A stretch of DNA of 64,000 nucleotides. Source: Fidelibacterota bacterium. GTDB lineage: Bacteria; Fidelibacterota; Marinisomatia; Marinisomatales; UBA1611. Below the pieces are notes generated by a model. The model saw nothing but the letters and a program-made list of their open reading frames with translations. It was not told the origin of the DNA and made no database searches. Made by a program: the position numbers and the translations under genes. Location: assembly GCA_016784605.1 (NCBI GenBank), contig JADHUI010000001.1, forward strand, positions 91,543 to 155,542, written 5' to 3'. The stretch's first letter is position 1. Each line of letters starts with the position of its first letter. This document shows, in pieces, positions 18,314-23,140 of the stretch.

Positions 18314-19903
18314 TCATTCCTTATAACCAGATAATTCTCTTGCTGAAGGGTCTATAACATCTGTCCACCTTGGCATCCAAAATTTTGGAATTAAATGATC
18401 GTTTGTTCCAAAAAACGATTGAAACACTTTTCTATAATAATAACTTTCTTTTAACATTGGCGTGCAATGATGAATAGATTTTGCGGATTGAAAAAACTCT
18501 TTATCTGAAATTTGCTTGTCCACAAATTCTTGTATGACGGTATGCCAAGATGTTTTTTGTGAACTTACACCATCAGAAAAGGCGCACTTTCGTCTCCATA
18601 AAACATTATCGGGGATAATGTCTAACCCATCAAATGCTTTTCTAAGAAGATGTTTTTCAAGTCGCAACTCTCCATCAAACTGTTTTAATTCTGGTTTAAT
18701 AGATAAATAATATTTTACAAATGATTTATCTAAAAATGGCGTCCTCGCCTCGAGTCCGTTAGAGCTTATACTGCGATCCGATCGAAGTACATCATATAAA
18801 TATATTTCTTCAACTAGTCGCTCACTTTCTTCTTGAAGATCCAATGGCGAAGGAGCGTTTTTTAAATAAACATAACCACAGCAAACTTCATCCGCGCCAT
18901 CTCCGTTGAAAATGACTTTACAGTCGGAATTTTCAGAAATAAATTTAGAAACCAAATAATTTCCAACGCTTGCTCGAACGGTTGTGGTGTCATATGATTC
19001 AATATTATAAATGACCATTTCTATTGCTTCAAGAAATTCATTTTGCGATAACTCAATTTGATGATGATTTGACCCTAAAAAATCAGCAACACCTTTTGCA
19101 TATTCAAGGTCAACGCTTCCAGTCATCCCAACAGTAAATGTGTTTAAACCTCGACCATTATATTTTTTTGCCACCAATCCCGTTATAAGGCTTGAATCTA
19201 ACCCTCCTGAAAGAAGGCAACCAATTTCTCGATCAGCCATGAGTCTTTTATCCACAGCTGAAGTGAGATAATGTCTAATAGACTCACAAATTTTATCTTC
19301 ATCCGTCTCGGTGTTTATGGGTGTTGAATATGTAAAATACCGGTTAAATGTTTCGGGGGATTTAGATGTCCACCATGTCCCTGGCTTAAAGGGTGTTATT
19401 GTATCACAAAGATCTGTTAATACCTTTGCTTCTGATGAAATAAAAATATTATCGTCCATTTTCCCGATAAACCCCGGGCGAACACCCATTGGGTCCCTTC
19501 CGGAAATGAGTTCGTTTTTTAATTCATCATAAATAACAAACATAAAGACGCCATCAAGTTCTTGGATTGTTTTTTCTATCCCAAACTCTTTATACATAAA
19601 TAAAATGATTTCACAATCACTACCAGAATGGAGTTCAAAATTGTATTTTTCTGCTAAATATTGATAATTATAAATTTCACCATTACAAATTAAAGTAATC
19701 AAATCATCCTTTGGGTGTTTCATAGGTTGGTTTCCCTCATCTGATAAACCCATAATTGCTAATCGATGAAAAATAAAATGTATATCCTGTGATACACTTT
19801 CATAATGAGAGTTGTCAGGCCCTCTGTATTGAATTTTATCTACATGAGTTTTTATATCTTCAATTGAATAGGTTGATCCGGCGTAAGATACGATTCCGCA
19901 CAT
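18314..19903 (-). CDS. asnB: asparagine synthetase B (glutamine-hydrolysing)
   Basis: Makes asparagine from aspartate, ATP and glutamine. The N-terminal Ntn glutaminase domain starts with the catalytic Cys2 (MCGIVSYAG) and has IQYRGPD, CNGEIYNY and SGSDCEII. The synthetase domain has the ATP-binding SGGLDSS at 232-238, FTVGMTG, FNGDGADEVCCGY and the C-terminal LEARTPFLDKSFVKYYLS. Its 529 residues are close to E. coli AsnB (554). The gene is preceded on its own strand by an Asn-rich leader peptide and an intrinsic terminator that starts 28 bases from the start codon, so it is very likely controlled by transcription attenuation. Confidence 0.94.
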   Translation of the reverse strand: MCGIVSYAGSTYSIEDIKTHVDKIQYRGPDNSHYESVSQDIHFIFHRLAIMGLSDEGNQPMKHPKDDLITLICNGEIYNYQYLAEKYNFELHSGSDCEIILFMYKEFGIEKTIQELDGVFMFVIYDELKNELISGRDPMGVRPGFIGKMDDNIFISSEAKVLTDLCDTITPFKPGTWWTSKSPETFNRYFTYSTPINTETDEDKICESIRHYLTSAVDKRLMADREIGCLLSGGLDSSLITGLVAKKYNGRGLNTFTVGMTGSVDLEYAKGVADFLGSNHHQIELSQNEFLEAIEMVIYNIESYDTTTVRASVGNYLVSKFISENSDCKVIFNGDGADEVCCGYVYLKNAPSPLDLQEESERLVEEIYLYDVLRSDRSISSNGLEARTPFLDKSFVKYYLSIKPELKQFDGELRLEKHLLRKAFDGLDIIPDNVLWRRKCAFSDGVSSQKTSWHTVIQEFVDKQISDKEFFQSAKSIHHCTPMLKESYYYRKVFQSFFGTNDHLIPKFWMPRWTDVIDPSARELSGYKE

Positions 19904-19930
19904 TTTATGTATTTCCTTTTCTTTTTTAGT

Positions 19931-19967
19931 AAAAAAAAACCCTCACAAGCTTTCGCTGTGAGGGTTT
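19931..19967 (-). terminator. attenuator terminator in front of asnB
   Basis: On the minus strand, AAACCCTCACA (19967 down to 19957) pairs perfectly with TGTGAGGGTTT (19947 down to 19937) around a 9-base loop, followed by nine T (19939-19931, partly within the stem). This is a full intrinsic terminator lying between the leader peptide and asnB, where it could only reduce asnB expression. Confidence 0.9.
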
Positions 19968-20010
19968 GTGTAATTTTAATTGGCGATCTAGATTACACAA
20001 CATCCCCCAC
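19958..20010 (-). promoter_or_regulatory. antiterminator hairpin of the asnB attenuator
   Basis: On the minus strand GTGGGGG-ATG-TTGTGTAAT (20010 down to 19992, spanning the last leader codons and the stop) can pair with ATTACACAA-A-CCCTCAC (19974 down to 19958): 9 plus 7 base pairs, one G-U pair, a 3x1 internal loop and a 17-base loop. The second arm includes most of the 5' arm of the terminator, so the two structures exclude each other. A ribosome that reaches the leader stop codon would cover the first arm and allow the terminator to form. Confidence 0.8.
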
Positions 20011-20076
20011 GCTTATATTATTAGCGTTATTATTGTTATTATTAACAAAGATGTTGATGTAATTCAGATGCTTCAT
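19993..20076 (-). CDS. Asn-rich leader peptide of asnB
   Basis: A 27-codon frame starting with ATG at 20076 and ending with TAA at 19995-19993. Ten of 27 residues are Asn (positions 5, 8, 12-17, 19 and 20), with a run of six Asn codons (NNNNNN). It is followed at the right spacing by an antiterminator/terminator pair and then asnB. This is the classical layout of leader-peptide attenuation, as for trp, his and leu operons, with asparagine as the sensed amino acid. No clear ribosome binding site precedes the ATG; a promoter-like pair upstream would place the transcript start about 3-4 bases before it, so the leader may be translated as a leaderless message. Confidence 0.85.
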   Translation of the reverse strand: MKHLNYINIFVNNNNNNANNISVGDVV

Positions 20077-20086
20077 AACTATAATA

Positions 20087-20115
20087 AGTATAAACATATA
20101 TAGCATAGTTGAAAA
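20087..20115 (-). promoter_or_regulatory. possible promoter of the asnB leader
   Basis: On the minus strand TTTTCA (20115-20110), 17 bases, then TATACT (20092-20087). The -10 box matches five of six consensus bases, the -35 box four of six. The -10 box ends 10 bases before the leader ATG, which implies a near-leaderless transcript. Confidence 0.45.
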
Positions 20116-20189
20116 GCAATTTATTTGAATTTCTAATATTATATTTCACCTGGGTTAATTATTCTACACATACAAAAGAGAGGGAAATA

Positions 20190-20423
20190 ATGAAGAAAGA
20201 GAAAAATCAACCAATCGTAGTTATGTCGGAAGCGGGCAAAACATACGCATGGTGTTCATGTGGACTAACCGAAAAAGAACCTTTTTGTGATGGGGCACAT
20301 AAAAAGACAGATTTTAAACCTATCGTGCTAAAGTGCACTCAAGAAAAAAAATTAGCTTGGTGTGGGTGTAAACACTCAAATAACAAACCTTACTGCGATG
20401 GGTCGCATTCAGGTTTGTTATAA
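20190..20423 (+). CDS. CDGSH iron-sulfur domain protein (two domains)
   Basis: Small 77-residue protein with two complete CDGSH motifs: CSCGLTEKEPFCDGAH and CGCKHSNNKPYCDGSH. Each Cys-Cys-Cys-His set would bind one [2Fe-2S] cluster, as in mitoNEET-type and MiNT-like tandem proteins. No membrane segment is present, so it is probably a soluble redox or cluster-transfer protein. I start at the ATG at 20190, which has GAGAGGG upstream; the open frame reaches back to 20109 without a good site. It diverges from the asnB leader, about 110 bases away, and converges on ppdK, 14 bases away. Confidence 0.9.
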   Translation: MKKEKNQPIVVMSEAGKTYAWCSCGLTEKEPFCDGAHKKTDFKPIVLKCTQEKKLAWCGCKHSNNKPYCDGSHSGLL

Positions 20424-20437
20424 TATAGGTACTTATT

Positions 20438-23140
20438 TTATTTTCTCAAATTTGCTTGCGCTGCAGCAAGTCTTGCAATAGGAACCCTAAAAGGAGAACA
20501 AGAAACATAATCTAAACCAACGCGATGGCAAAATTCAACAGAACTTGGTTCCCCTCCATGCTCTCCGCAAATGCCGAGTTTTATTCCAGGGCGAGCTTGT
20601 CGTCCTTTTTCGCAAGCCATTTCAACTAATTGCCCTACACCCTCTTGATCTAACACTTCAAATGGATCATTTTTTAAAATACCCTTTTCAAGATAAACGG
20701 GTAAAAATTTCCCCGCATCATCTCTTGAATAACCAAAGGCCATTTGAGTTAAATCGTTTGTTCCAAATGAAAAGAATTCTGCATATTTTGCGATTTTATC
20801 CGCCGTTAGTGCAGCTCTAGGAATCTCGATCATAGTACCGACTAAATGATCGATTGAATTATTCTTTTCATCAAATAAAGTTTGAATAGTATCCCGAACA
20901 ACAGACTCTTGCATTTCCATTTCAGAGACTGTTCCAGTTAAAGGAATCATGATTTCAGGAACAGCAGTAATGCCTCGCTCTTTTAATGCTAATGCAGCAC
21001 CCATAATTGCCCGCGTTTGCATAATGGTAATTTCAGGATAAGTATTCCCTAAACGACATCCGCGATGACCCAACATTGGATTAATCTCAGACAAGTCTTC
21101 TACTTTTTCTTTAATAACATCGATCGAGACACCCATCACATCAGCCATTTCCTGTTGGCCTTTTTCTTCGTGTGGTACAAATTCGTGTAATGGAGGGTCT
21201 AAAAGTCTGACTGTTACTGGCAACCCTTCCATGGCTTCAAATATGCCTTCAAAATCTTTCTGTTGAATTGGGAGTAATTTTTCTAAAGCCATTTCACGAC
21301 CAGCCTTATCTTCAGCCAAAATCATTTCACGCATAGCAACAATTTTTTCTCCTTCGAAAAACATATGTTCTGTACGACAAAGACCAATTCCTTTTGCGCC
21401 AAATTCTCGAGCAACGCGACTATCATGAGGCGTGTCCGCATTCGTCCGTACCGACATGCGAGCATATTTGCTCGTTAAATCCATGAGCTTGCCAAAATCT
21501 CCAGACAATTCAGGATCAATTGTTTTTATTTTTCCTTCAAATATTCGCCCGCTTGAGCCATTAAGTGAAACCCAGTCACCTTCATTGAAAACTTCACCCT
21601 TAACAACCATTTTTCTTGTTTTGTAATTGATTTTTAAATCACCGGCACCGGAGACACAACATTTTCCCATTCCGCGAGCGACTACAGCGGCGTGAGACGT
21701 CATACCTCCGCGAGCTGTTAAAATACCATTTGCTATATTCATACCCTCAAGGTCTTCGGGAGATGTTTCAATTCGGGCTAATATGGCATTATCGTACTTA
21801 TGAGCTTCATCTGCAAAAAAGACGAGTTGACCTGTAGCGGCACCCGGGGAAGCAGGGAGACCTTTTGTTAATACACGTGCATCTTCCATTGCTTTTTTAT
21901 CAAAGACAGGGTGAAGTAATTCATCTAATTTATTAGGCTCCATTCTTAATAAAGCGTCTTTCTCGTCAATTTCATTATTTTCCAACATTTCAATAGCAAT
22001 ACGGACCATAGCAAACCCCGTACGTTTACCTGACCGTGTTTGGAGCATCCATAATTTCCCGTCTTGCATTGTAAATTCAACATCTTGCATATCTTTATAA
22101 TGATTTTCAAGTTTATTTTGGATTTCATCTAATTCAGAATATATATCCGGCATCAATTCTTCGAGGGATGGATAAATATTTTTTCTTACATCTTCTTCAA
22201 CACCAGCTAAAGTCGCCCATCGTTCAGAGCCAACTTTTGTAATTTGTTGAGGTGTTCGCACTCCCGCAACAACATCCTCTCCTTGCGCGTTAATAAGATA
22301 TTCACCGTTGAAAATATTTTCACCTGTTCCAGCATCTCGCGTAAAGGCAACACCTGTTCCAGAATTATTGCCCATATTACCAAATACCATCGCTTGAACA
22401 TTTACAGCCGTTCCCCAATCATCTGGGATTTTATTAAGTTTTCTATAATAGACAGCCCGAGGCGTTTCCCATGAATCAAATACAGCCATTACAGAACCCC
22501 AAAGTTGGTCCCAAGGATTATCAGGGAATTCCTTCCCTGTTTGCGCTGTTACGGCAGATTTAAATTTATAAACAAGTTCTTTTAAATCTTCAATGGTGAA
22601 ATCTGTATCAAGTTCAATGCCGCGACTTTCTTTTAATTCATCCATAATAGCTTCAAAAGGATCAATATCTTCTTTGGATTCTGGTTTCATTCCCAGAACA
22701 ACATCTCCATACATTTGAACAAATCGACGGTAAGAATCCCAAGCAAATCGCTCATCACCTGATTTTTTAGCAATAGCTTCAACCGCTAAATCGTTCAAGC
22801 CAAGATTTAAAACAGTATCCATCATGCCGGGCATTGAAACACGCGCGCCTGATCGAACAGATAGCAATAAGGGATTTTCTGTCCCTCCAAAATCAGCCTC
22901 CATGATATTTTCAATATTTTTAACACCCAGCTCTACTTCTTCCTTAATCATCTGAACCGTCTGTTCTTGACCCACTTTATTGTATTCAGTACAAACATCA
23001 GTTGTTATAGTAAATCCTGGCGGGACCGGAACGTCCAATAAATTCATTTCCGCGAGGTTGGCGCCTTTTCCGCCAAGTAAATTTTTCATATCTGCTTTAC
23101 CGTCTGCTTGACCATTTCCAAATTGATAAACGTGTTTCAT
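20438..23140 (-). CDS. ppdK: pyruvate, phosphate dikinase
   Basis: Interconverts pyruvate, ATP and phosphate with PEP, AMP and pyrophosphate. The N-terminal nucleotide-binding domain is present (GGKGANLAEMNLLDVPVPPG, SVRSGARVSMPGMMDTVLNL). The central phosphohistidine domain has the catalytic His in GGMTSHAAVVARGMGKCCVS. The C-terminal PEP/pyruvate TIM barrel has GIGLCRTEHMFF, MLGHRGCRLG, FSFGTNDLTQMAFGYSRDD and GICGEHGGEP with the catalytic Cys in DYVSCSPFRVPIARLAAAQA. At 900 residues it is full length. It stands alone and may serve gluconeogenesis or glycolysis with pyrophosphate. Confidence 0.95.
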   Translation of the reverse strand: MKHVYQFGNGQADGKADMKNLLGGKGANLAEMNLLDVPVPPGFTITTDVCTEYNKVGQEQTVQMIKEEVELGVKNIENIMEADFGGTENPLLLSVRSGARVSMPGMMDTVLNLGLNDLAVEAIAKKSGDERFAWDSYRRFVQMYGDVVLGMKPESKEDIDPFEAIMDELKESRGIELDTDFTIEDLKELVYKFKSAVTAQTGKEFPDNPWDQLWGSVMAVFDSWETPRAVYYRKLNKIPDDWGTAVNVQAMVFGNMGNNSGTGVAFTRDAGTGENIFNGEYLINAQGEDVVAGVRTPQQITKVGSERWATLAGVEEDVRKNIYPSLEELMPDIYSELDEIQNKLENHYKDMQDVEFTMQDGKLWMLQTRSGKRTGFAMVRIAIEMLENNEIDEKDALLRMEPNKLDELLHPVFDKKAMEDARVLTKGLPASPGAATGQLVFFADEAHKYDNAILARIETSPEDLEGMNIANGILTARGGMTSHAAVVARGMGKCCVSGAGDLKINYKTRKMVVKGEVFNEGDWVSLNGSSGRIFEGKIKTIDPELSGDFGKLMDLTSKYARMSVRTNADTPHDSRVAREFGAKGIGLCRTEHMFFEGEKIVAMREMILAEDKAGREMALEKLLPIQQKDFEGIFEAMEGLPVTVRLLDPPLHEFVPHEEKGQQEMADVMGVSIDVIKEKVEDLSEINPMLGHRGCRLGNTYPEITIMQTRAIMGAALALKERGITAVPEIMIPLTGTVSEMEMQESVVRDTIQTLFDEKNNSIDHLVGTMIEIPRAALTADKIAKYAEFFSFGTNDLTQMAFGYSRDDAGKFLPVYLEKGILKNDPFEVLDQEGVGQLVEMACEKGRQARPGIKLGICGEHGGEPSSVEFCHRVGLDYVSCSPFRVPIARLAAAQANLRK

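Follow-up and report, generated by a model that had tools for sequence, protein, structure and literature searches.

Asparagine genes of Firmicutes are known to carry T-box riboswitches that sense tRNA-Asn. The amino acids classically sensed through leader peptides are those of the his, trp, leu, thr, phe and ilv systems (PMC1183508), and leader peptides for cys, leu and trp have been described in Actinobacteria (PMC1262725). In 2010, leader-peptide systems were stated to be known only in Proteobacteria and Actinobacteria, to which Firmicutes were then added (PMC2965389). No asparagine leader is named in these three papers. The locus described here lies upstream of an asnB gene on the minus strand of the window, i.e., the whole 64,000-nt stretch of DNA that was analysed, which belongs to a genome of Ca. 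Neomarinimicrobiota. No Rfam family reached its own cut-off in the window. The best amino-acid leader in a permissive scan was His_leader (RF00514), whose 24.8 bits (E 0.042) did not reach the gathering cut-off of 49. The T-box model (RF00230) gave no match at gathering score in the window and none at E up to 10 in positions 19880–20200, and a T-box reading of the leader was accordingly rejected.

Organisation of the asnB leader

The features of the locus, in the order of transcription, are as follows.

20087–20115, minus strand: candidate promoter, TTTTCA (20115–20110), 17 nt, TATACT (20092–20087); consensus scan only
19993–20076, minus strand: leader peptide ORF MKHLNYINIFVNNNNNNANNISVGDVV; read from the sequence, with an Asn-rich ORF equally placed in 22 of 22 loci
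20050–20064, minus strand: arm 1, AATTACATCAACATC, in the 5′ portion of the leader ORF, partner of the antiterminator 5′ arm (1:2 pairing); minimum free energy (MFE) fold and arm swap between genera
20026–20043, minus strand: run of six Asn codons, proposed stalling site; sole (AAY)6 in window and genome
20009–20027, minus strand: small hairpin at the last Asn codons, ACGCU..AGCGU; two-sided changes and arm swap between genera
19992–20010, minus strand: arm 2, antiterminator 5′ arm GTGGGGG-ATG-TTGTGTAAT, containing the leader stop codon; sequence, with the G-run kept in 22 of 22 loci
19958–19974, minus strand: arm 3, antiterminator 3′ arm ATTACACAA-ACCCTCAC; sequence, folds of all 22 loci and covariation
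19931–19967, minus strand: intrinsic terminator (arms 3:4) with nine T; terminator scan, 22 of 22 loci and covariation
18314–19903, minus strand: asnB, glutamine-hydrolysing asparagine synthetase of 529 aa, the regulated gene; TIGR01536 and structure matches

By sequence inspection, the leader ORF runs from an ATG at 20076 to a TAA at 19995–19993. Ten of its 27 codons specify Asn, and codons 12–17 are Asn without interruption. An (AAY)6 run occurs once in the window (0 of 100 shuffles) and once in the entire 2.17-Mb genome, namely in this ORF before asnB, and a chance origin of the run was rejected on these grounds. A second, longer in-frame ORF begins at an upstream ATG at 20106; the start at 20076 is preferred because it lies downstream of the likely −10 box. 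No Shine-Dalgarno sequence is found upstream of the leader ATG in the window. The candidate promoter would place the start of transcription approximately 0–8 nt upstream of this ATG, leaving the leader ORF nearly leaderless.

The antiterminator consists of 9+7 pairs between 20010–19992 and 19974–19958, G-U pairs counted, and the CCCTCAC of its 3′ arm doubles as the 5′ arm of the terminator. The terminator stem has 12 pairs (19967–19937); its T's run to 19931, and it ends 27 nt upstream of asnB. The preliminary description of this DNA had recognised the 27-codon leader with ten Asn codons, six of them consecutive, the stop codon within the first arm of a 9+7 antiterminator, and an overlapping terminator with nine T before asnB. 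The leader and the antiterminator are borne out by the sequence, the terminator was recovered by the terminator scan, and every coordinate given there is correct. Folding of the leader, proposed in that description as a check, gives a z-score of −6.9 (0 of 200 shuffles equally stable). The MFE fold contains the terminator together with the 1:2 pairing and lacks the antiterminator, as is expected of a kinetic switch. The small hairpin at the last Asn codons could possibly serve as an RNA polymerase pause hairpin.

Judged by its sequence, the downstream gene encodes a true AsnB, a glutamine-hydrolysing asparagine synthetase. The protein scores 359.7 bits against TIGR01536 (cut-off 267.1), and it matches human ASNS (6gq3; E 2.4e-126) and E. 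coli AsnB (1ct9; E 5e-89) over most of its length. An AsnB 90% identical to it is encoded on contig JABHGY010000034.1. An asparaginyl-tRNA synthetase (AsnRS) is encoded in the same genome, and asparagine made by AsnB could thus be charged directly onto tRNA-Asn. Upstream on the same strand is a pyruvate phosphate dikinase gene (20438–23140, minus strand), which ends at 20438 and is separated from the leader by a divergent CDGSH gene. A dikinase gene is likewise upstream of asnB in L038 and L040–L042; in genus g30, it directly precedes the leader and ends approximately 100 nt before it.

Conservation and covariation among relatives

When asnB orthologues were gathered from the order and the phylum, the same order of parts was found before 22 of them. 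These come from six genera, g1 and g8 in family f1 and g18, g27, g30 and g36 in family f8. The shared layout comprises an Asn-rich ORF, a G-run, a stop codon, a variable antiterminator stem, a C-run and a terminator. Each of the 22 leaders (e.g., MRYIISLNNNNNNNVNGVGAPV, MGYTINNNNNNNNNANNNGVGALV and MELQNIFWRKPTNKVNQFNSLFNNNNMSGGEAL) has 6–12 Asn codons, and in each the G-run begins 12–15 nt before the stop codon. The U-tract ends 60–67 nt past the start of the stop codon, and a strong stem with 6–9 T is present throughout. The gap between terminator and asnB is 11–28 nt in 21 loci. The exception is L036, with 194 nt, where extra DNA containing a long inverted repeat (GGGAAATGCTGTTAATAGCA..TGCTATTAACAGCATTTCCC) separates the attenuator from asnB. 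Outside its Asn codons, the leader peptide is poorly conserved. Both Asn codons are used (AAU 133, AAC 57). Among codon changes, those at Asn sites are synonymous in 33% of cases and those elsewhere in 26%, and a difference this slight says little, taken by itself, in favour of translation.

The element is absent upstream of asnB in g5 and g10 (f1), g37 (f8) and g40 (f16), and is therefore dispensable for asnB within the phylum. It was likewise not found upstream of the E. coli-like AsnB genes (approximately 40% identity) of 19 other phylum genomes. On the AsnB tree, its presence requires three changes, e.g., one gain and two losses. Genera g8 (f1) and g18 (f8) are intermixed on this tree, a sign either that asnB and its leader have passed together from one family to another or that the tree has reached its limits. 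The asnB leaders of genus g30 (L014, L038–L041) have a TAnnTTT(G/A) box with a TTG approximately 20 nt upstream, and the leader ATG follows only approximately 8 nt behind the box. From these motifs, genus g30 probably uses a Bacteroidetes-type promoter and a nearly leaderless leader ORF.

Across the 22 loci, the inner antiterminator stem varies by genus, and complementarity to its own partner is always kept. The stems found are CTTCCGT/ACGGAAG, TCCCGT/ACGGGA, CTGTGT/ACACAG, AAGCTT/AAGCTT, TCTCA/TGAGA, CTCGT/ACGAG and, in the window, TTGTGTAAT/ATTACACAA. In an arm-swap test, 5′ arms of one genus were set against 3′ arms of another over 720 genus arrangements. The true arrangement ranked second of 720 for the antiterminator and first for both the Asn hairpin and the 1:2 pairing, the last being weak in g27; this genus-level ranking preserves relatedness within genera and is coarse at six genera. 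Genera g8 and g18 share an antiterminator stem, and their arms are almost interchangeable. Direct counts in eight g27 and g30 sequences give changes from C-G to U-A at antiterminator columns 43/60 and 44/59 and from G-C to A-U at columns 46/57. The Asn hairpin occurs as ACGCU..AGCGU, ACGUC..GACGU and UGCC..GGCA, with two-sided changes at some positions; in the hairpin and the terminator combined, 6 of 15 pairs have changed on both sides, a number reached in none of 500 shuffles. The supported helices are the 1:2, 2:3 and 3:4 set of a trp-type attenuator. The preliminary description had left its reading to be judged on close relatives, and what it looked for is present there: all elements, from the leader frame with its Asn codons and the position of its stop to the two hairpins, are kept before the 22 orthologues of six genera, and the hairpins have changed in a compensatory manner, as seen in both the arm swaps and the two-sided changes.

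Proposed mechanism and alternative explanations

The element is most probably a ribosome-mediated transcription attenuator, with which asparagine synthetase would be made only under a shortage of charged tRNA-Asn (probability approximately 0.88). What is inferred here is that the ribosome stalls, that transcription and translation are coupled and suitably timed, and that the switch responds to asparagine, the last because the leader codon matches the product of the enzyme. RNA polymerase would transcribe the leader with a ribosome trailing behind it. When Asn-tRNA(Asn) is scarce, the ribosome would stall in the Asn codon run and disrupt arm 1 and the small hairpin, so that arm 2, made up of the G-run and the stop-codon segment, stays unpaired. 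It could then pair with arm 3 as soon as the latter is made, the terminator would form too late, and asnB would be transcribed. When Asn-tRNA is plentiful, the ribosome would reach the stop codon in arm 2 and cover this arm; arm 3 would pair with arm 4, and transcription would stop in the U-tract upstream of asnB. In the window leader, a ribosome stalled at the last two Asn codons would already sit over the G-run, and the earlier Asn codons would be the useful ones. Without translation, the 1:2 pairing may also favour termination in some species. In free RNA, this pairing strongly blocks the antiterminator only in L001, L034 and L036 of the 22 loci, so that an untranslated leader is not generally predicted to terminate.

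In simulations with the ribosome placed at the first Asn codon of the run, before synthesis of the terminator 3′ arm, the antiterminator G/C helix forms with a probability of 0.98–1.00 in 22 of 22 loci. For a ribosome at the stop codon, the footprint was assumed to lie over the G-run, and the terminator-only outcome is thus built in. The terminator prevails at equilibrium in the full leader, even with a stalled ribosome, and the switch must therefore be kinetic and decided during transcription.

The hairpin could instead be a mere terminator of the upstream pyruvate phosphate dikinase gene, beside which the Asn-rich frame would be incidental. Intergenic terminators are common, the dikinase gene is on the same strand, and its proximity to the leader in g30 would suit such a role. 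This explanation nevertheless has to bridge the divergent CDGSH gene in the window, and it accounts neither for a conserved antiterminator that destroys the terminator, nor for an Asn-rich frame whose stop keeps its place in 22 loci, nor for the covariation of the other helices; it is considered extremely improbable. Leader peptides often control translation, as those of the erm type do, or act through Rho, and the present leader might likewise work mainly through translation of asnB or through Rho or mRNA stability rather than through intrinsic termination. The strong stem followed by 6–9 T in all loci, close to asnB in every locus bar one, speaks against this, as does the use of the terminator 5′ arm by the alternative helix. 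Moreover, the likely ribosome-binding region of asnB in the window, AAAAGGAAAT, is not within any helix, and an effect mainly at these other levels is judged very unlikely.

Transcription attenuation could also respond to another cue, such as a general slowdown of translation or the modification of tRNA-Asn. Queuosine-modified tRNA reads AAU and AAC in many bacteria, and both codons are used in these leaders. Against such a cue, the sensed codon specifies the amino acid made by the regulated gene, which is the signature of amino-acid attenuators, and the Asn codons stay constant while the rest of the leader varies; the chance that the leader senses something other than charged tRNA-Asn appears slender indeed. 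Attenuation by asparagine supply, the reading preferred here, would mean that the ribosome itself probably gauges this supply and decides on the transcription of asnB.

Similar leaders in the phylum and comparison with known systems

A first covariance model (R1) built from all 22 sequences was discarded, since RNAalifold gave an odd helix and the antiterminator registers differed by genus; it was replaced by R2, built from 12 sequences with a prescribed structure. Over 245 phylum genomes, R2 recovers the asnB loci (E 3e-22 to 3e-5), and it also finds leaders of the same plan: L099, a Trp leader ahead of trpE, and L095, which is Lys-rich and precedes a lysX operon. The weak matches L103–L105 were rejected as attenuators, being terminators behind a long ORF.

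The trpE leader (L099; G122:C19:18846–18968, minus strand) encodes MKLILKSIKTTNQLIWWYNYGGTL and is followed by a G-run, a stop codon, a CTTGT/ACAAG stem and a C-run terminator a few nt from trpE. In L095 (G053:C157:504–616), a Lys/Arg-rich leader, MSKKNNRPLARNKNIARRAKMLSVGVTV, with the G-run/stop/C-run plan stands before lysine-pathway (lysW/lysX) genes. These two leaders thus have the G-run, stop and C-run layout in common with the asnB leader. The same plan is found before lysW/lysX genes in L100 and L101 (G085, G086), whose leaders contain few Lys codons. In L106 (G198:C1:58595–58701, minus strand), a Met- and Cys-rich frame (..MGIMMCLMCMYSSDTVGVEWLL) is followed by a terminator and a gene resembling threonine synthase, which a ThiS/MoaD-like ORF adjoins; the frame is possibly a Met/Cys leader.

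A search of the genome to which the window belongs found no trpE. This genome has a His leader, MNIRRRHNHHHRPFTLKGRSGLAT (L125; G000:C10:844–938, minus strand), whose terminator lies approximately 20 nt upstream of hisG and whose ATG is preceded at approximately 10 nt by a Bacteroidetes-like −7 box, TATTTTTG. Just upstream of ilvD in the same genome (L129:9065–9210; G000:C1) is a Leu/Ile/Val-rich frame, MILNNNKQSIIAAELPVVQSIDLYLFSLVNISLLLNILVLIIIGLVV, ending in SLLLNILVLIIIGLVV, with GTCGTC/GACGAC pairing around and after the stop codon. From its sequence, this frame is likely a branched-chain leader attenuator. The presence of the His and Leu/Ile/Val leaders makes ribosome-mediated attenuation appear at home in this lineage. 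The His, Leu/Ile/Val, Trp and Lys-rich leaders of Neomarinimicrobiota follow the same plan as the asnB leader, with other amino acids. It is conceivable, although somewhat doubtful at this breadth, that leader-peptide attenuation is a general control of amino-acid synthesis in Neomarinimicrobiota. It would then extend to amino acids hardly or not known for it (Asn, probably Lys, and Met/Cys) and make use of nearly leaderless leader ORFs, Bacteroidetes-like promoters and one layout (a G-run, a stop codon 12–15 nt later and a C-run terminator) reused by swapping the codon run.

The preliminary description knew of no asparagine leader peptide of this type outside T-box systems. This stands in the literature searched, which yielded no asparagine leader peptide or attenuator and whose scope lay outside the main comparative reviews (Vitreschak 2004; Lopatovskaya 2010); novelty for asparagine is thus likely. 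If the proposed mechanism is true, asparagine joins the few amino acids for which sensing through a leader peptide is known, and an uncultured marine phylum joins the Proteobacteria, Actinobacteria and Firmicutes in the use of such attenuation (PMC2965389). The Asn codon runs and covarying helices lend themselves to easy testing in a surrogate host and to easy searching in other genomes.

Among systems with a similar output, AsnC-controlled asnA of E. coli likewise raises asparagine synthesis under asparagine shortage, through a DNA-binding protein and a different enzyme and without an RNA switch. T-boxes for tRNA-Asn respond to the same signal, uncharged tRNA-Asn, and likewise either end transcription ahead of an asparagine gene or let it through. 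Unlike the asnB leader, they bind the tRNA directly, through the specifier loop and the T-box sequence, and have no leader peptide. The closest likeness is to attenuators of the trp/his type, whose hallmarks are found here: a leader ORF rich in the product amino acid, an intrinsic terminator, a covarying antiterminator that overlaps the end of the ORF, and a 1:2 pairing. With the his (RF00514), trp, thr and phe leaders of enterobacteria, the asnB leader shares the short ORF rich in the product amino acid, the 1:2, 2:3 and 3:4 helices, a stop codon near arm 2 and a terminator immediately ahead of the first structural gene. The earlier statement that its structures exclude each other exactly as in the trp and his leaders is fair as to architecture. 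Unlike those leaders, it concerns asparagine, belongs to another phylum, precedes one gene rather than a long operon, and has an ORF that probably begins near the RNA 5′ end without a Shine-Dalgarno sequence. The proposed mechanism is a textbook one, and it is the amino acid and the phylum that are apparently new.
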